From positions 21,244-85,243 of the forward strand of contig VYBO01000046.1 in the NCBI GenBank assembly GCA_009844405.1: a stretch of 64,000 nt of DNA. The letters are read 5' to 3'. A model generated the notes under the pieces. The model saw only the letters and a program-made list of their open reading frames with translations. It did not search any database and was not told the DNA's origin. The DNA comes from Acidimicrobiaceae bacterium (lineage in GTDB: Bacteria > Actinomycetota > Acidimicrobiia > Acidimicrobiales > Aldehydirespiratoraceae). Of this stretch, positions 40,866 to 51,612 are shown piece after piece. A program made the position numbers and the translations under genes. How positions within the stretch are numbered: position 1 is the stretch's first letter; each line of letters starts with the position of its first letter.

Positions 40866-43115
40866 GTGTCAGATGAGGGCCTGACCGTCTTCAACGGTCG
40901 CTACGAGTTGCTCCGCCGCATCGCGCGCGGCGGGATGGCCGACGTCTACCTGGCCCGGGACGCGTCGCTCGACCGGCAGGTGGCGGTGAAAGTCCTGTTC
41001 CCCGAGTTCGCCAATGATCCGAGCTTCGTCGAGCGCTTCCGCCGGGAGGCGAAGGCCGCGGCCAACCTGAACCACCCCAACATCGTCGGCATCTACGACT
41101 GGGGTCAGGAGCAGGGCACCTACTACATCGTCATGGAATACGTGGTGGGCCGCAGCATGGCCGACGTGATGCGCTCCACCGGTCGTCTCAGCCCCGACCG
41201 GGCCGCAGAGATCGCGTCCGACGTGGCCGAAGCGCTCAGCAGCGCCCACAACGCCGGGCTCGTGCACCGCGACGTCAAGCTCGGCAACATCATCGTCAGC
41301 GACGACGGCCAAGTGAAGGTGGCCGACTTCGGCATAGCCACCGCCCTGGCCCGAAGGACCGGCGACAACCTCACCCATATCGGGTCGGTCATGGGCACGG
41401 CCACCTACTTCTCGCCCGAGCAGGCCCAGGGCAAGGCCCTCGACGGTCGCAGTGACCTGTACTCGCTCGGGGTCGTGCTCTACGAGATGATCGTGGGCAA
41501 GCCCCCTTTCACCGCCGACACCTCGACCGCGGTGGCCGTCAAGCACGTGCAGGAGCGTCCGCTCGCCCCGTCGATGCTGGGCGTGAGCATCGTGGAGTCC
41601 CTGGAGGCCATCATCCTCAAGCTGCTGGCCAAGAACCCGGCCAACCGCTATCCCAAGGCGGAGGACCTGCGCGCCGACCTTCAGCGTTACCTGGCCGGCG
41701 CCCACAGCATCCCGACTCGTACCGGCCAGTCGCCCCCGGTCCGGACGGGCCAGTCGCCCAGGGTCCGGACAGGCCAGTCGCCCCGGGTCCGGACGGGCCA
41801 GTCGCCCCGGGTCCGGACGGGCCAGTCGCCCCGGGTCCGGACGGGCGAGCGTCCTGCGACCGGATCGCAGACGCTGCCGGCCCCGGTGGCAGTCCGGCCG
41901 CGCACCGGTCCGGTCGCCACCGCTCCCCCGCCCAGCGGCGGTCCGCCCACCGGGCCCCGCGCCCAGGTGCCCGCCGCGCCAGGGCCGGGACCGGGGCCTC
42001 CGCCCCAGTACGTGCCACCGGCCTACTACTACGAGGAGGTCCACCGATCCGACGGATGGAAGCGGACGGCGCTCATGTTCTTCGGTCTGGTGGTGCTCGT
42101 GGTCGCCCTCGTCTTCCTGGGCTGGACCTTCTACGATTCGCTGGGCCTGGGCGACGACAACGGGCCCGCAGAGCCGACCACCCCCGAGAGCGTCGCGCTG
42201 ATCGAGGTGCCCGACGTGTCCGGGTTCAGCTACGGAGAGGCGGATGCCCAGCTGCGGGCCCTCGGGTTGCAACCGGAGCCGAGCTACGAGGTCGACACGG
42301 GCGTGCCCGAGAACACGGTGTTCGCCCAGAGCCCGCTCGCGGGCCAGCGGATCGAGGAGGGCGCCACGGTGGCCCTCACTGTCAGCCAGGGCGAGATCCC
42401 GAGGGTCCCTCCCGTGCGGGGCCGCAACCGTGTCGATGCCACTGAGATCCTTCGGGACGCGGGCTACGAGGTCATCGTGATCCAGGGCACCAGCCAGGCC
42501 GAGGCGGGCATCGTGGTGGGCCAGGAGCCCTCCTCGAAGACCGAGCTCGCGCTGGGCGAGGCGGTGACCATCACGGTCTCCACCGGGCCGGGGCAGATCT
42601 TCGTGCCCGACGTGCGGGGCCAGACACTGATCCAGGCCATCCAGACCCTGGCCGACCAGGGGTTCCGCGTGGCTGAGCGGCGCGAGCCTTCGGCGACGGT
42701 CCCGGAGGGCGAGATCATCGAGACCGATCCGCTCCAGGGGTTCCCGGTGGCTGTCGGCCTGGAGATCTACATCATCGTCTCGGACGGTCCTCCGCTGGTG
42801 GCCATCCCCGACGTCGAGGGCCTGCTGTTCGACACCGGGAAGCTGGCCATTGAACGGGACGGGCTCGTCATCGGCATCGTGGCGTTCGAGCCGGTCGAGC
42901 CGGGATCGTCGGATGTGGGCCGGATCCTGGCCCAGACGCCGCCCCCCAACCTCGAAGTGTCGGCTGGGACCCCAGTGGACGTCGTGGTGGGCGAGTCGGC
43001 CGAGACCGAGGGCGATCAGATCGGGCCGGAGCCGCCCGAGGGCGAAGGCGGCGAGACCGAGGGCATCGAACCGTCCGGCGCGATCCCGCCCGAGGAGCCC
43101 GACGAGACCGGCTGA
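40866..43115 (+). CDS. pknB: PknB-family Ser/Thr kinase with four PASTA domains
   Basis: Kinase domain (GGMADVYLARD, VHRDVKLGNIIV, VADFGIA), TM segment, four PASTA-like repeats. Confidence 0.94.
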   Translation: MSDEGLTVFNGRYELLRRIARGGMADVYLARDASLDRQVAVKVLFPEFANDPSFVERFRREAKAAANLNHPNIVGIYDWGQEQGTYYIVMEYVVGRSMADVMRSTGRLSPDRAAEIASDVAEALSSAHNAGLVHRDVKLGNIIVSDDGQVKVADFGIATALARRTGDNLTHIGSVMGTATYFSPEQAQGKALDGRSDLYSLGVVLYEMIVGKPPFTADTSTAVAVKHVQERPLAPSMLGVSIVESLEAIILKLLAKNPANRYPKAEDLRADLQRYLAGAHSIPTRTGQSPPVRTGQSPRVRTGQSPRVRTGQSPRVRTGQSPRVRTGERPATGSQTLPAPVAVRPRTGPVATAPPPSGGPPTGPRAQVPAAPGPGPGPPPQYVPPAYYYEEVHRSDGWKRTALMFFGLVVLVVALVFLGWTFYDSLGLGDDNGPAEPTTPESVALIEVPDVSGFSYGEADAQLRALGLQPEPSYEVDTGVPENTVFAQSPLAGQRIEEGATVALTVSQGEIPRVPPVRGRNRVDATEILRDAGYEVIVIQGTSQAEAGIVVGQEPSSKTELALGEAVTITVSTGPGQIFVPDVRGQTLIQAIQTLADQGFRVAERREPSATVPEGEIIETDPLQGFPVAVGLEIYIIVSDGPPLVAIPDVEGLLFDTGKLAIERDGLVIGIVAFEPVEPGSSDVGRILAQTPPPNLEVSAGTPVDVVVGESAETEGDQIGPEPPEGEGGETEGIEPSGAIPPEEPDETG
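41718..41849 (+). repeat. 24-bp in-frame minisatellite in pknB juxtamembrane linker (5.5 units)
   Basis: Unit CGGACGGGCCAGTCGCCCCGGGTC encoding RTGQSPRV. Confidence 0.95.
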
Positions 43116-43709: not shown

Positions 43710-43784
43710 CTCCAGAACGCTACCGGCACGACGTGATCAGCAAGACCGGAAGCGCACCCCGGGCAGGCCGCCGGCCGGAACTGC

Positions 43785-46007
43785 TCAGCTGCCAGCGGAG
43801 TCGCGAGCCTCGACCGCCTCCAAGACATGCAGAGCGATATCGGCGACCTGTACAGAATCCTCCGACACACCCGCAGCCCGCACTCCGTCGTCCATCATGA
43901 TGTAGCAGAACGGGCAGGCGGTGGCGATGCGCGACGCCCCCGTGTCGAGCAGTTCCCGGGACCGCTCGTCGTTCACCTTGGTGCCGATCGTCTCCTCCAT
44001 CCACATGCGGGCCCCGCCCGCGCCGCAGCACATGCCCTTGGTGCCGTTGCGGGGGGCCTCCACCAGGTCGATGCCGCCGAGCGAGCCGAGCACCCGCCGG
44101 GGAGCGAGGTACACGTCGTTGTGGCGTCCCAGGTAGCAGCTGTCGTGGTAGACGACCCTCTCCGCAAGAGCCGCCCCTTCGAGGTCCAGGCGGCCCTCGG
44201 CCACCAGCGCCTCCAGGAACTGGCTGTGGTGGACCACCTCGTAGTGCCCGCCGAGTTGCGGGTACTCGTTGGCCAGCGTGTTGAAGCAGTGGGGGCACTG
44301 GGTGACGATCTTGCGCACCCCCATCGAGTTGAGGGTCTCGATGTTGGCCGACGCCAGCATCTGGAACAGGTACTCGTTGCCTGAGCGCCGGGCCGAGTCG
44401 CCGGTGCAGTTCTCGGCCGGGCCGAGGATGGCGAAGTCCACGCCGGCCCGCTCCATGAGCTGGGCCATGGCCCGGGCCACCTTCTTGTTCTTGTCGTCGA
44501 ATGACCCCGCGCACCCGACCCAGTACAGGTACTCGGCGTCCAGCGGGTCGCCGCCGGACAGGACCCGCACGCCGTCGAGGTCCCGGGCCCAATCGGCCCG
44601 CTCGGTCTGGCTGAGCGACCACGGGTTGGACGAGTTCTCCATGCCCCTGAAGGCCTGGCCCAGCTCCGAGGGGAAGTCGCTCTCCATCAGGGTGAGGTAG
44701 CGGCGCATGTCCAGGATCTTGTCGAGGATCTCGATGTTGACCGGGCAGATCTCGTCGCAGGCCCGGCACGACGTGCAGGCCCACAGCTCCTCGTCGGTGA
44801 CGGGGCCGCGGCCCTCGCCGTCGGGGTGTTCTATGTGCTCGAACATCCAGTTGGCCGGCACCTCGACGGTCTCCTCACCGCTGCTTAGGGGCGGCGACGT
44901 GGGCGGGCTGCCGGTGAGGGCCATGACCTCGCCCGTCTTGAGCACGATCTCCCGAGGATCCAGGGGCTTGCCGGTGGCGTGGGCCGGGCACACCGAGGTG
45001 CAGCGGCCGCACATGGTGCAGGCGTCGGTGTCGAGCAGCTGCTTCCATGAGAAGTCCTCGATCACCGAGGCGCCGAACGCCTCCAGCTCGGTGTCGCCCT
45101 CCACCAGGTCGGGCATGGGCCGCATGGCGCCCTTGGGCCGGTCGCGGTGGCGCAGGTACATGTTCAGAGGCGACGTGAACATGTGGCGCAGCATCGTCGT
45201 CGGCAGGATCACCAGGAACGCCATGAAGGCGACCACGTGGGCCACCCACCACGCCTGATGCCAGCCGTGCACTGCGCCTGAGGTGTCGACGAGGGTGGCC
45301 AGCGGGTAGCCGATGAAGCTCCAGCGCTCGTGGTCGGGCAGCCCGTCGGCTGCGATCCTGAAGGCCTCCGCACCGAAGCCGGTCACCCCGATGGCCAGCA
45401 TCACCCCGCCGATGACCGCGTGCTCGGGCCGGGTCTTGATGCGGATGCGGTACGGCCGCCAAGCCGGCGGGCCGAAGCGGCGCAGGATGGCCCACAGCAT
45501 CCCGATCACGAACACCAGCCCGGCTGCGTCGCCCACCGCGGAGTAGGCCCGGTACACGTCGCCGTGCAGGAACTTGGCTCCGTCCGGCAACTGGTGGTGG
45601 ACCTCCAGGGTGGTGGTCACCCCCAGCAGCACCAGGAAGCTGAAGTAGATGAGCGAGTGCATCACGCCCGCGCCCGGCTCCCGCAGCAGGGTCTGCATAT
45701 AGACGCCGGCCCGGAAGTCGGCCATGCGGTGCTTGGCGTTGTGCACCGTGGTGCGGCGGTTGTCGGGCCGGCCCCGTTCCCAGTTCTTGACCCGGTTGGC
45801 GAACAGGACCGCACCGTACACCAGCAGTATCGGGATGACGGTGTAGAAGGCGGCCTTCAGCGGAGCCGGGATGTTGCCGAAGACCTCGCGGGTGACGGGG
45901 GAGTCACTGCGGAAGCCGGTGATCCCGGCGACGATCCCCGACAGGGCGGTGAACAGCGCGATGGCGACACCGAGCGCGACGACGATGTGATGGGGCTTGA
46001 TCCGCAT
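43785..46007 (-). CDS. membrane Fe-S oxidoreductase (heterodisulfide reductase-related, CCG domains)
   Basis: N-terminal multi-TM region, CTMCGRCTSVCPAHATGKPLDP and CTSCRACDEICPVNIEILD clusters, CCG motifs. Confidence 0.9.
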   Translation of the reverse strand: MRIKPHHIVVALGVAIALFTALSGIVAGITGFRSDSPVTREVFGNIPAPLKAAFYTVIPILLVYGAVLFANRVKNWERGRPDNRRTTVHNAKHRMADFRAGVYMQTLLREPGAGVMHSLIYFSFLVLLGVTTTLEVHHQLPDGAKFLHGDVYRAYSAVGDAAGLVFVIGMLWAILRRFGPPAWRPYRIRIKTRPEHAVIGGVMLAIGVTGFGAEAFRIAADGLPDHERWSFIGYPLATLVDTSGAVHGWHQAWWVAHVVAFMAFLVILPTTMLRHMFTSPLNMYLRHRDRPKGAMRPMPDLVEGDTELEAFGASVIEDFSWKQLLDTDACTMCGRCTSVCPAHATGKPLDPREIVLKTGEVMALTGSPPTSPPLSSGEETVEVPANWMFEHIEHPDGEGRGPVTDEELWACTSCRACDEICPVNIEILDKILDMRRYLTLMESDFPSELGQAFRGMENSSNPWSLSQTERADWARDLDGVRVLSGGDPLDAEYLYWVGCAGSFDDKNKKVARAMAQLMERAGVDFAILGPAENCTGDSARRSGNEYLFQMLASANIETLNSMGVRKIVTQCPHCFNTLANEYPQLGGHYEVVHHSQFLEALVAEGRLDLEGAALAERVVYHDSCYLGRHNDVYLAPRRVLGSLGGIDLVEAPRNGTKGMCCGAGGARMWMEETIGTKVNDERSRELLDTGASRIATACPFCYIMMDDGVRAAGVSEDSVQVADIALHVLEAVEARDSAGS

Positions 46008-46211
46008 GGCGGGCGCGACACTACTCGCCGCGCCCCGGTCAGGGCGGGGAAGGCGATGCTCGGCCCCGTCAGTCTTGAGCGGCACCAGCCGGGTCGGCGC
46101 CTGACCCAGAACGCGGCTGATGGGCCTCTGTTAGGTCTGACTCGGATCTCCTCTCAGCAACTCACCGCACCACCCTCACGACTCTGACCCGTTCGGCCCA
46201 TGGGTGCTGGG

Positions 46212-46958
46212 TCAGCCAGTGTTCTCGTGCCCAGGCGTCGCGTGAGCGACACACTCCGCGGTGGCCACCAGCAGCGTGTGCTCGATGAACAGGTCTTCCT
46301 CGTCCGCGCTGAACTGGGTGCCCAGCGCCGTTGTCAACAGCTTTGCCCACAACTCGCGCTTGATCGCGACCTCGGGCTGGGAGCGGTTTGCCCGATATAG
46401 AGCATTCAACGTGGCACGTTCGAGTTCATGGCCAGGACTGTCCGCTCCGAGCTGGTCAGCAATCGCCTGCCGAGTCGGAGCGATCTGCTCCTCGGTCGTC
46501 AACACCGACCCGAGCCACCTCACCAGCGCCTCAACATTCGGTGCTGCCGGGTCCACGTGATGCTCAGCGACAGCAACCAGGCCACCTTCGCCATGGTGGA
46601 ACAGATGCCAGTCCCGGCCGTCGGTGACGATCCCCACATAGCGCTGCCCGAGGCTGCTGCTCTTTGCTTCCACGTAGTCAGCAAGCTGCGTTGCCGCATC
46701 TTTCAGCGACCCCTGCGGAGCCAGGTTGCGCTTCACCTCGATGACGGTGCGGCCCATCTCAATGTCGATACGGCGACGGTCAGCGAGCGGAGATTCCAGC
46801 TTGACATCGAGCACGTCACCTTCGGTGAGGTTCAACCCCGCCGCCAGCAACAGCATCCGCACATCGGACTGCACCGTCGCTTCGCTGCGGCCCTTCAGCG
46901 AACGGTTCGCGAGGCGCTCTGCTAGCTCACGAAGATCGATCCAGCCTTCTGTAGCCAC
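46212..46958 (-). pseudogene. Truncated type I/IIG restriction-like N-terminal fragment (HSDR_N-like nuclease plus start of methylase region)
   Basis: LEERLANRSLKGRSEATVQSDVRMLLLAAGL-type N-terminus, PLADRRRIDIEMGRTVIEVKRNLA (nuclease-like); ORF stops after LFIEHTLLVATAECVAHATPG, normally followed by a long methylase in relatives. Confidence 0.55.
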
Positions 46959-47083
46959 GGAGCGACTCTACGCGAGGTGCATCCCCCCCAACCACGTCAC
47001 CTCGGCCCCTTGGCTTGCCATGCGATGATCGGCGCTGGTCACCACTGTAGTCTTAATCCCATGGTCTGCGGTTCCGATCATCG

Positions 47084-47920
47084 ATGAGCACGGAAGGACT
47101 GCCGGACTTCGAAGCGCCGCCTGTGGTCGAGACCGTCTTGGCGGTTCGGTTTCGCGATGTCCCGGGCCTTGACGCGCCGCGCCTGGTGAAATTCTGGGAC
47201 GATTGTCTCTCGACGGACCTGCCGGTGATCGAGGAGCGGCCGCCCTACGACGCGCCGGTCGAGCAGTTCGGCCAGGACAGCGGGACATCCGCGGTGGCAC
47301 TGCGGATCGGGGCTTCCGTCCCCTCACCCCGGTTCTTCTGCTCCAGCGGGAACGACCTCGTCCAGCTTCAACAGGACTGGTTCGCCTACAACTGGCGAAA
47401 GACTCCCGAGAACCCCGACTACACCCGGTACGAGAAGGGTCGGGCGAAGTTCGAGCGCTGGCTGACGGAGTTCGGCTTCTACGTCCGAGAGGCGCTTGGT
47501 GCCGGACTGGTGCCGACCCAGTGCGAGGTCACCTACATCAATCACATCCCGCTCACGGCCGAAGACCTTGACGGGGGACCGTTCGGTGCCATCCTGCGCG
47601 ACGTCCAGCCACGCTACGGTGCTTTTTTGCCCTCGCCGGAGACATCAAGGCACGCGTCGGCCTACCTGATCCCCGGGACCGAGGGATCACCCATGGGCCG
47701 CCTCCATGTGGCGGTCGATCGAGCGTGGGCTGGCGAGGAGCGCCAACCGATCGTCTTGTTGAGTCTCACCGCGCGGGGCGCACCGCGAGGGAGCGAGGTC
47801 TCAGCGGTGCTCGAGTTCCTCGACCTGGGCCGCCGGTGGGTAGTCAAGGGATTCTTGGACATGACAACGGCTGCATTCCACCGTCGCTGGGGCTTGCACC
47901 CCGATAAGGAGGCAACATGA
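47084..47920 (+). CDS. TIGR04255-like family protein
   Basis: LPDFEAPPVVETVLAVRFRDVPGL; LVQLQQDWFAYNWRKTPENPDYTRYEKGRAKFERWLTEF; CEVTYINHI. Confidence 0.78.
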   Translation: MSTEGLPDFEAPPVVETVLAVRFRDVPGLDAPRLVKFWDDCLSTDLPVIEERPPYDAPVEQFGQDSGTSAVALRIGASVPSPRFFCSSGNDLVQLQQDWFAYNWRKTPENPDYTRYEKGRAKFERWLTEFGFYVREALGAGLVPTQCEVTYINHIPLTAEDLDGGPFGAILRDVQPRYGAFLPSPETSRHASAYLIPGTEGSPMGRLHVAVDRAWAGEERQPIVLLSLTARGAPRGSEVSAVLEFLDLGRRWVVKGFLDMTTAAFHRRWGLHPDKEAT

Positions 47921-48387
47921 CACTGGCCGAGCCCGCCGTCTTCAGCGTGGCCTCACCGGCTTCTTCCTTGGATGAGTCGGAGTTGACGCTGCAGAGGATG
48001 CACTTCGCCCTTCCCGGCTCCCTAGCGGTGTCGTCCTCCTGGCTCCATGCCGTCGACGTCGAAGTCAAGGAACTGCTGTTGTTGTCCGAGGGGTGGGACG
48101 GCGCGGTGGCCTACCCGGTGTCCGCCGAGGCAGTCGACCGCGCTCGCCGATTGCTGGCTGAGATCGGTGCCGCCCTGCCTGCGCTGCCACGTCCGACGGT
48201 GACACCGTCGATCGATGGCTGTGTCGTCCTTGAGTGGCATTCGTCTGAGCGTCACATCGACTTCACCGTCGGACGCGATTCGATAGAGGTCTTCTACGAG
48301 GATGACAAGCAGGACGTGGGCTGGGATGGACCGCTCACCCGTTCCCCTCTCGATCCGCTTGCCTTTCTCTCGGTTCACAGCTGGTAG
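47917..48387 (+). CDS. conserved hypothetical protein, second gene of the TIGR04255 operon
   Basis: 4-bp ATGA overlap; ELLLLSEGWDGAVAYPVSAEAVDRARRLLAE...PRPTVTPSIDGCVVLEWHSSERHIDFTV. Confidence 0.7.
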   Translation: MTLAEPAVFSVASPASSLDESELTLQRMHFALPGSLAVSSSWLHAVDVEVKELLLLSEGWDGAVAYPVSAEAVDRARRLLAEIGAALPALPRPTVTPSIDGCVVLEWHSSERHIDFTVGRDSIEVFYEDDKQDVGWDGPLTRSPLDPLAFLSVHSW

Positions 48388-48402
48388 GCGGCTCGCGGAT
48401 AC

Positions 48403-48855
48403 ATGCCGGGCGGGAGCCCCTACGAGGACGACCTGGTCGGCATTCTGCCGACCGCACGTCTGCTCCGACGGATCAATCCGAGATTCTGCGACTGGAACAC
48501 TCTTGACGCAGAGGGAAACCCTCGGGTGACCCGACAGGCCGTCCAGTTCTACACGGAGGAGATGGCTGCCAGGGTCGGCTGTCCGGGGCCCGCGCTCTCG
48601 GTGATCGTCGAGTCGCTCGCCGATCCGCTGGAGGTGCTGCGTGGGCGCTATGCGGGTGACGGGTTGGCGAGCATCACGGCAGATGTGATTCGCGGTGAAG
48701 CCAGCGAGCGCGGAATCCAACTCTGGCCGACCCCTTGGGAGCCGGCTCACGCGGTGGTATTCCGCACTGACGGAGGCAGGGATCTTCCCAAGAGTGTCAA
48801 ACAACGGCTGGCAGAGCATCTGAGCAAGAACTGGGTCACGCCGCCAAGGCGCTAG
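48403..48855 (+). CDS. conserved hypothetical protein, third gene of the TIGR04255 operon
   Basis: ORF 16 bp downstream, same strand; LLRRINPRFCDWNTL...GPALSVIVES...GLASITADVIRGE...WEPAHAVVFR. Confidence 0.65.
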   Translation: MPGGSPYEDDLVGILPTARLLRRINPRFCDWNTLDAEGNPRVTRQAVQFYTEEMAARVGCPGPALSVIVESLADPLEVLRGRYAGDGLASITADVIRGEASERGIQLWPTPWEPAHAVVFRTDGGRDLPKSVKQRLAEHLSKNWVTPPRR

Positions 48856-48874
48856 GGCTGCAAATCAACCGGCG

Positions 48875-49645
48875 TCAGGGTAGAGAAGGGCGTGAGGCCT
48901 GGGCGGCCACCTCGGCGGCCGCGGCGGCAGCGGCGACAGGATCGAGGGCCCGCTCCAGGGGGTGCTTGGGCTCGGTCGGGAACATGTCGGAACCCAGCAC
49001 GTAGTGCAGGGGCATCCCGGTGGGAATGTTGAGGGCACCGATGTCGTCGTCGGAGATGCCGTCCAGGTGCTTGGCCAGGGCGCGGAGGCTGTTTCCGTGG
49101 GCCGAGACCATCAGCGTGTGGCCGCTGCGCAGGTCTCCGACGATGGCGTCCTGCCAGTAGGGCAGCAGCCTGGCCAGCACGTCCTTGAGGCTCTCGGTCA
49201 GCGGCACGAGCCCGGGATCGAGGTCCGCGTATATCGGCGAGCCATTGGGGTTGAACTCGTTGTCGCTCCGGATGGGCGGCGGCGGGGTGTCGAAGCCCCG
49301 GCGCCACCGCTGCAACTGCTCGTCGCCGTGGGCCTCGCGGGTGGCCGCCTTGTCCAGCCCGGTCAGGTCGCCGTAGTGGCGCTCGTTGAGCCGCCAGCTC
49401 CTGCGAACCTCCAGCGAGCCGAGGCCGAGGTCGTCGAGCACGATTCTGGTCGTCTCCGTGGCCCGTTCCAGGACTGACGTGTGTACCGCGGTCGGCATCA
49501 GACCGGCGGTGGCCAGCATCTCGGCGGCCCGGTGGGCCTCGGCTCGACCGGCTTCGTTCAGTCCGCAGTCGTACCAGCCGGTGAAGAGGTTCTTGTCGTT
49601 CCAGGTGCTGCGGCCGTGGCGAAGAAGGATCAGGTCGTGAGCCAT
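48875..49645 (-). CDS. gpmA: 2,3-bisphosphoglycerate-dependent phosphoglycerate mutase
   Basis: LILLRHGRSTWNDKNLFTGWYDCGLNEAGRAEA; RRSWRLNERHYGDLTGLDKA; SAHGNSLRAL. Confidence 0.95.
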   Translation of the reverse strand: MAHDLILLRHGRSTWNDKNLFTGWYDCGLNEAGRAEAHRAAEMLATAGLMPTAVHTSVLERATETTRIVLDDLGLGSLEVRRSWRLNERHYGDLTGLDKAATREAHGDEQLQRWRRGFDTPPPPIRSDNEFNPNGSPIYADLDPGLVPLTESLKDVLARLLPYWQDAIVGDLRSGHTLMVSAHGNSLRALAKHLDGISDDDIGALNIPTGMPLHYVLGSDMFPTEPKHPLERALDPVAAAAAAAEVAAQASRPSLP

Positions 49646-49679
49646 GGCTGCCCAAGGTACCCGGCTCGGCTCCGAGAAA

Positions 49680-49700
49680 GTTGATAAGAACAGACTCAAG
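49680..49700 (+). promoter_or_regulatory. Degenerate HAIR-like element (GTTGATA-N7-ACTCAAG) upstream of dnaK
   Basis: Matches CTTGAGT-N7-ACTCAAG fully in the right half and partly in the left, with correct spacing; hspR is in the operon. Confidence 0.45.
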
Positions 49701-49779
49701 TTTTTGTGCAAATGGGAATGAACTTCGCTACTCTGTGCGTTCTAGGTTAGGCAAGACATAAGTGAAAGGAAGCCTCACC

Positions 49780-51612
49780 ATGCCAAAGGCCGTCGGTATC
49801 GATCTCGGTACCACGAATTCTGTCGTAAGCGTCCTCGAGGGCGGCGACCCCGTCGTCATCCCCAACGCGGAGGGATCGCGCACGACTCCCTCCGTCGTGG
49901 CGTTCAGCAACGACGGCGAGGTGCTCGTGGGCGAGGTCGCCAAGCGCCAGGCCATCACCAACCCCGATCGCACCATCCGCTCGGTGAAGCGGCACATGGG
50001 CACGGCCAAGACGTTCAAGGTCGACGACAAGAGCTACGCCGCCCAGGAGATATCGGCCCGGGTGCTGATGAAGCTCAAGCGCGACGCCGAGGAGTACCTC
50101 GGCGACACCGTCACGCAGGCGGTCGTCACCGTGCCCGCCTACTTCGACGACGCCCAGCGCACCGCCACCAACGAGGCCGGCAAGGTCGCCGGGCTCGAAG
50201 TTCTGCGCATCATCAACGAGCCCACCGCGGCCGCCCTCGCCTACGGACTCGACAAGGAGTCCGCCGACCAGACCATCCTGGTGTTCGACCTCGGCGGCGG
50301 GACCTTCGACGTGTCGGTGCTGGAACTCGGCGACGGCGTGTTCGAGGTGAAGTCCACCTCCGGCGACACCAAGCTCGGCGGCGACGACTGGGACGAGGCC
50401 GTGATCGACTGGCTGGTGGCGTCGTTCAAGGGCGACCACGGGGTGGACCTGTCCACCGACGCCATGGCCATGCAGCGTCTCAAGGAGGCGGCCGAGAAGG
50501 CCAAGATCGAGCTGTCCCAGACCCCGTCCTCGCAGATCAACCTGCCCTTCGTGACCGCCACCGACAAGGGTCCGCTGCATCTCGACTACACCCTCAGCCG
50601 GGCCAAGTTCCAGGAGTTGACCGCGCAGTTGCTCGACCGCTGTCGGGGCCCCTTCGAGCGGGCCATCTCCGACGCCGGCATCGCCTCCGGCGACATCCAC
50701 CACGTTGTCCTGGTGGGCGGGTCGACCCGCATGCCGGCGGTGGCCGAGCTGGTCCAGGAGATGAGCGGCCGCGAGCCCAACAAGACGGTCAACCCCGACG
50801 AGGTGGTGGCCGTCGGTGCGGCCATCCAGGCCGGTGTGCTCAAGGGCGAGGTCAAGGATGTTCTGCTGCTCGACGTGACCCCGCTGTCGCTGGGCATCGA
50901 GACCAAGGGCGGCGTGATGACCACCCTCATCGAACGCAACACCACCATCCCCACCCGCAAGAGCGAGATCTTCACTACCGCCGAGGACGGCCAGCCGTCG
51001 GTGGAGATCCATGTGCTCCAGGGCGAGCGGCAGATGTCCGCCTACAACAAGACCCTGGGCAAGTTCCAGCTCGTCGACCTGCCGCCCGCGCCCAGGGGCA
51101 TGCCCCAGATCGAGGTGACCTTCGACATCGACGCCAACGGCATCGTCCATGTGAGCGCGCAGGACAAGGCCACCGGCAAGGAGCAGTCGATGACCATCAC
51201 CGGTCAGTCGTCGCTCGGCTCCGACGTCATCGACCAGATGGTCGCCGACGCCGAGGCCCACGCGGCGGAGGACAGCCAGCGGCGCGAGGAGGCCGAGATC
51301 CGCAACGCGGCCGACACCCTCGTGTACCAGACGGAGAAGCTGCTGAAGGAGCACGCGGACGAGGTGTCCGACGACGAGAAGGAGGCCATCAACTCCAAGC
51401 TCGCCGATCTGCGCAGCGCGCTGGAGGGTGACGACGTCGAGGCGGTCAAGTCGGCCACCGAGGCGCTCTTGACGGCCAGCCAGGAGTTCGGCCAGAGGCT
51501 CTACGACGCGGCCGCCGCGTCCGCTCGCGGGCCGGGCGCGGCCGGCGAAGCCTCCGATGACGACGACGTGGTCGAGGCTGAGATCGTCGACGACGACCGC
51601 GAGACGGCGTGA
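49780..51612 (+). CDS. dnaK: molecular chaperone DnaK
   Basis: [42 protein letters not shown]...[15 protein letters not shown]. Confidence 0.98.

Follow-up and report, generated by a model that had tools for sequence, protein, structure and literature searches.

Three genes on one strand, here called P1, P2 and P3, lie close together in the window (the whole 64,000-nucleotide stretch of DNA from an Acidimicrobiaceae bacterium that was analysed). Their coordinates (Table 1) bear out the description in a first-pass annotation of three same-strand ORFs, the first two overlapping by ATGA at positions 47917–47920. The P2 and P3 genes are separated by a gap of 15 bases, and the motifs quoted earlier for P2 and P3 are present in the proteins. 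The restriction-type gene that had been noticed beside the trio does match the N-terminal part of the PADLOC type IIG restriction-modification profile REase_MTase_IIG (E 1.1e-8, residues 51–213); against Pfam MmeI_N it scores 0.018, below the cut-off. This 248-aa gene is outside the conserved trio.

Table 1. Features of the trio locus and of related loci; coordinates without a prefix are positions in the window.
Feature	Coordinates	Strand	Remarks
Insertion holding the nuclease-type gene and the trio	46054–48871		2.8 kb; absent from a congeneric sister species
Restriction-type nuclease N-domain gene (MmeI_N / type IIG-like)	46212–46958	−	248 aa; within the insertion
P1, TIGR04255 family protein, trio-type subfamily	47084–47920	+	278 aa; ATG start
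P2, W(D/N)G(Y)GA...P.V.P..GG..(L)EW domain, a separate protein here	47917–48387	+	156 aa; ATG start
P3, PDC-M32B-like protein, candidate enzyme	48403–48855	+	150 aa; ATG start
gpmA	48875–49711	−	Downstream of the trio
Second, diverged trio	G000:C44		Same genome; P1 30% identical; P2 homologue matches PDC-M32A C-terminus
DUF4209/HEPN-type protein + P2 + P3-like operon	L157:1903–4810		Hymenobacter plasmid
DUF4209/HEPN-type protein + P2 + P3-like operon	L156:1955–4863		Hymenobacter plasmid

P1 had been called TIGR04255-like, and it aligns along its full length with NCBIfam TIGR04255.1 (residues 9–270 on profile positions 2–252 of 252) at 43.4 bits, above the curated NCBIfam cut-off of 30 bits. 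In profile–profile comparison with hhalign, the trio P1 profile matches canonical TIGR04255 at 97.3% (E 2.4e-11). NCBIfam names this family 'sporadTIGR04255', function unknown, and our literature search found no paper naming TIGR04255. Within the family the trio-type P1s differ in forming a divergent, low-scoring branch with motifs of its own (QxQxD...NWRK...YPRY and QCEVTYxNHI). The earlier expectation that the other two genes would co-occur with TIGR04255 homologues holds nearly always for this subfamily, whose members within the class score about 30–82 bits and carry P2–P3, but it fails for most of the class's canonical, high-scoring TIGR04255 genes, which have no P2–P3 within about 1.5 kb. 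Residues Y113, Y151 and F257 are common to trio P1 and canonical TIGR04255; the polar residues Q146, E148 and T150 of trio P1 are R, G and R in the canonical proteins. No catalytic motif can be recognised in P1 and, since these polar residues differ, no catalytic site common to the trio-type and canonical proteins is visible.

The AlphaFold2 model of P1 (pLDDT 93.1, pTM 0.91) predicts a two-lobed alpha/beta fold, each lobe being beta-alpha-beta(4)-alpha-like. Its nearest solved folds (Foldseek, PDB) are the AdoMetDC prozyme (E 5e-5) and TBP (about 1e-3), and the two halves of the model resemble those of the TBP, AdoMetDC, START and Bet v1/PYR helix-grip folds. Because global superposition is poor (TM 0.2–0.35 across the AdoMetDC prozyme and TBP matches, and only 0.24 for the best match at E 5e-5), this similarity can serve as a hint of fold class only; there is no sequence similarity to P1, and function is not transferable. 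An internal duplication of P1 was also considered, and profile comparison revealed no repeat by sequence, although the predicted secondary structure repeats. The alignments for the P1 and P3 structure models left out one plasmid record each.

P2 and P3 point to PDC-M32, a computationally proposed candidate anti-phage system in PADLOC that consists of PDC-M32A and PDC-M32B. PDC-M32A profiles match P2 with E values of 1.5e-8 and 9.5e-8 over profile positions 257–342 of 375; judged by these alignments, P2 is the C-terminal domain of PDC-M32A as a stand-alone protein. It has no Pfam or NCBIfam match, and searches of Pfam and of PDB sequences with P1, P2 and P3 returned nothing usable, the hits of P2 to designed beta-trefoils in the PDB looking like chance. 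Among PHROGs, P2 weakly matches only phrog_30544, a phage family that contains PDC-M32A-type proteins. P3 of the window itself falls below threshold against the PADLOC profiles and has no significant match of its own, whereas PDC-M32B is matched at E 2.2e-5 by the P3 homologue of the genome's second trio and down to E 3.4e-32 by other P3 relatives; with the commonest PDC-M32B profile, only eight of the 64 P3s in the alignment score at E 0.01 or better.

Since P2 corresponds to the PDC-M32A C-terminus and relatives of P3 match PDC-M32B, the trio can be read as an unfused, TIGR04255-bearing version of PDC-M32. In both arrangements the P2 domain comes before P3: real PDC-M32A proteins carry an N-domain and a P2 domain and are followed by P3 (L035, a 367-aa example, L147, L168, L171, L172, L175, L181 and L196). 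In contrast, the trio is without the N-terminal ~245 residues of PDC-M32A and has a separate TIGR04255 gene instead, whose product P1 matches no PADLOC profile. That the N-domain might be a hidden TIGR04255 was ruled out, for hhalign gave only 0.1–0.3% (0.3% for P1 against the N-domain), and the two share no profile similarity. The trio would thus represent a new PDC-M32 architecture in which a separate TIGR04255 protein replaces the N-terminal half of PDC-M32A.

Across the trio P3s and very diverse relatives, three residues of P3 are conserved: Arg22 (94%), Ser66 (100%) and His116 (100%). The P3 model is of high predicted quality (pLDDT 93.7, pTM 0.88), and comparing its fold with the PDB and with viral models gave no significant match, so that calling P3 an enzyme is a guess. 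An ADP-ribosyltransferase was suggested by a single structure, 1s21 (AvrPphF ORF2), at probability 0.11 and TM 0.33, a weak lead that we do not claim. Two P3-like ORFs (L089:7345–7881 and L115:6279–7139) have NYxHxE instead of AHA and possibly belong to a second P3 branch.

We searched for further loci with P1 alone, using an alignment of a closer subset of P1 relatives, and detected P2 and P3 at the resulting loci with iterated profiles. This search gave 82 trio-type P1 loci (80 in named genomes and two in viral contigs) spanning at least ten phyla. P2 is next to P1 in 81 of them, and in 75 the genes occur as P1–P2–P3 on one strand and in this order. Some of the exceptions have a P3 remnant (L070), a P3 in broken frames (L107), an end of the sequence shortly after P2 (L111), a stretch of N immediately after P1 (L088) or a P3-like ORF judged by eye (L089 and L115). 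At the 80 loci measured, the nearest in-frame P2 start lies −16 to +26 nt from the P1 stop, with a mode of −3. Given that P1–P2 contacts recur, that the order is so widely kept and that each of the three proteins is conserved (median pairwise identity 27–38%), the tight packing of the trio exceeds chance. The three proteins have also co-evolved: their pairwise distances are correlated at 0.68–0.72, against a permutation maximum of 0.19. The P1 tree requires 21 phylum-label changes where the minimum possible is nine, a pattern that fits horizontal transfer and is no proof of it.

Counting from the other two genes gave a concordant picture. In the 397 genomes of the window's own phylum, where the trio is rare and patchy (seven genomes), P3 matches occur at 11 distinct places, eight of them behind a TIGR04255 gene. 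A P2 search of two other phyla (299 genomes of the Pelagibius phylum and 199 from that of a Solibacteraceae genome) yielded 29 further places: 11 behind TIGR04255 (nine firm; L176 and L187 weak), seven PDC-M32A fusions and 11 with another or no recognised first part. The profile used for this count was partly built from the same sample, and earlier profiles from outside loci had already given the firm cases. A rarity of gene 2 and gene 3 homologues beside TIGR04255 genes, named at the outset as the observation that would tell against a unit, is therefore not what these counts reveal. At one locus (L148) a canonical TIGR04255 protein scoring 156 bits heads the P2–P3 pair. The genome of the window has a third TIGR04255 gene (C107, L019) with no adjoining P2 or P3. 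Taken together, the order, the correlated distances and the reverse counts strongly support the earlier proposal that the three genes are a conserved functional unit recurring elsewhere, and we regard it as almost certain that the trio, with its kinship to PDC-M32, is one unit. Near the second trio of the genome, a 148-aa gene (L002:3035–3481) matches another PADLOC candidate, PDC-M50A, at E 5.7e-47.

In a sister species (G1170, L259), window positions 43768–46053 and 48872–50489 directly adjoin, with 92–96% identity. Since these flanks are side by side there, the intervening 2.8-kb stretch is an insertion in the window or a loss in the sister species. Its G+C content is 0.63–0.66, compared with about 0.68–0.71 around it, and it is flanked by gpmA and an iron-sulfur oxidoreductase gene. 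The junction of these two genes is continuous in two family members (G1170 and G1161) and holds other genes in others. It is a variable insertion spot of up to about 18 kb (window 46054–48871; L260–L266). Elsewhere, on a Mycobacterium paragordonae plasmid, the trio adjoins mobF. Further upstream in the window (40866–43115) is a serine/threonine kinase gene with PASTA-like repeats, the linker of which contains several tandem copies of RTGQSPRV.

Comparison of the P2–P3 loci revealed that this pair is the constant core and that the first gene is an interchangeable part. Occupants of the first slot include TIGR04255, the PDC-M32A N-domain, a DUF4209/HEPN RNase-type protein and others. DUF4209 is one of the HEPN families and has been noted in operons related to restriction (PMC3710099). 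On Hymenobacter plasmids (Table 1) a DUF4209 protein with the HEPN RNase motif RNRIAH fills the slot before P2–P3; the H. volaticus copy of this gene is broken into two frames. P1 lacks the HEPN motif of these toxins and is predicted to fold differently. Judged by eye, an AAA ATPase precedes P2 at one locus (L173) and an AbiEi-like protein at another (L193), the P2 protein of the latter (L193:1495–1890) lying immediately behind the AbiEi-like antitoxin gene, where no P1 could be recognised. On an Acetobacter persici plasmid (L155:3944–5249), two tandem P2-like domains occur in one protein, and an SspB-annotated gene (ClpXP adaptor) then replaces P3.

In the division of labour that we prefer, the two-lobed, TBP/helix-grip-like P1 would recognise a ligand or target arising during phage attack or stress, P2, whose domain shares one polypeptide with the first part in PDC-M32A, would be an adaptor tying P1 to P3, and P3, with its conserved Arg, Ser and His, would be an enzyme held in check and then released to stop cell growth. 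We offer this assignment of recognising, tying and acting only tentatively. The HEPN protein in the first slot implies that this slot, and not P3, may be the toxic part. P1 would then be the toxic or acting component and P2–P3 a constant antitoxin or regulator pair, in which P3 might act enzymatically on the first protein, modifying and silencing it. Known defence systems often swap effectors and keep sensors or regulators constant (CBASS effectors and LmuA of Lamassu are examples), and the slot exchanged here is the first, one of whose occupants has an intact HEPN RNase motif and another of which is an AAA ATPase; moreover, the first part and P2 form a single protein in PDC-M32A, an arrangement conceivable for a neutralising domain. 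Several points weigh against this alternative: P1 lacks a catalytic motif that could be recognised, canonical TIGR04255 proteins do not share its polar residues, P2 is without a recognised partner in front at some loci (L184, L189 and L190), and the HEPN protein is seen in one genus only. We consider an effector in this position doubtful in itself and nearly as likely as the preferred assignment with P3 as the acting enzyme; both predict that the proteins form a complex and affect growth conditionally. Somewhat less doubtful, though still short of even, is the broader possibility that P2–P3 is the constant core of a large, modular and so far unrecognised conflict system, with TIGR04255, the PDC-M32A N-domain, HEPN/DUF4209 and other first parts exchanged for one another, and that P3 has a new enzyme fold with an Arg-Ser-His site, serving as the effector or as its control.

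The first-pass annotation had also raised a possible defence or stress module. In favour of this suggestion, two of the three parts match the PADLOC candidate PDC-M32; no excess of defence genes over the control was seen among the neighbours. Specifically, 49 PADLOC families were matched among 105 nearest neighbours, compared with 168 among 105 length-matched control genes, in a small and crude test whose control, arbitrary stretches of related genomes, was raised by one CRISPR-Cas region. Because the control genes had more PADLOC matches, a defence role does not rest on neighbourhood. Five phage integrases are found among the 105 nearest-neighbour proteins of the 82 loci, a raw count with no control set, and many nearest neighbours are ordinary metabolic genes. 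That neighbourhood, the rarity of the trio in viral contigs (two loci), the lack of any match in phage records in single-protein searches and the frequent binding of small molecules by helix-grip folds would all suit a stress, regulatory or metabolic operon with no phage role, in which P1 binds a small molecule and P2–P3 perform a housekeeping-type modification in special circumstances, but we think such an operon unlikely in view of a distribution that is rare and patchy yet spans many phyla, the insertion at a spot empty in the sister species, the plasmid and prophage relatives and the fast divergence, features that fit conflict genes better. A defence or stress role for the trio may be given an even chance, and we judge equally balanced the joint proposition that the trio is a horizontally moving accessory operon which is both a unit and has such a role.

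PDC-M32 was already known as a candidate; new are the architecture with TIGR04255, how widely it occurs and the finding that the first part is swapped between loci. The sporadic TIGR04255 family, which had no assigned function, hereby gains a testable home at the head of a conserved operon whose two other members are the core shared with PDC-M32, and PDC-M32 as drawn in PADLOC becomes one architecture within a wider modular family. A detection rule requiring the full PDC-M32A profile would miss the trio loci. Residues and gene pairs for testing are now named.

The one paper that our literature search found to name PDC-M32 does so as annotation only, the name having been given by PADLOC in Sinorhizobium prophages (PMC12429752). 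In one genus (g66), many small genomes have a 498-aa PDC-M32A-like protein; eight proteins of this type (L039, L040 and L045–L050) match PDC-M32A weakly at about positions 140–330.
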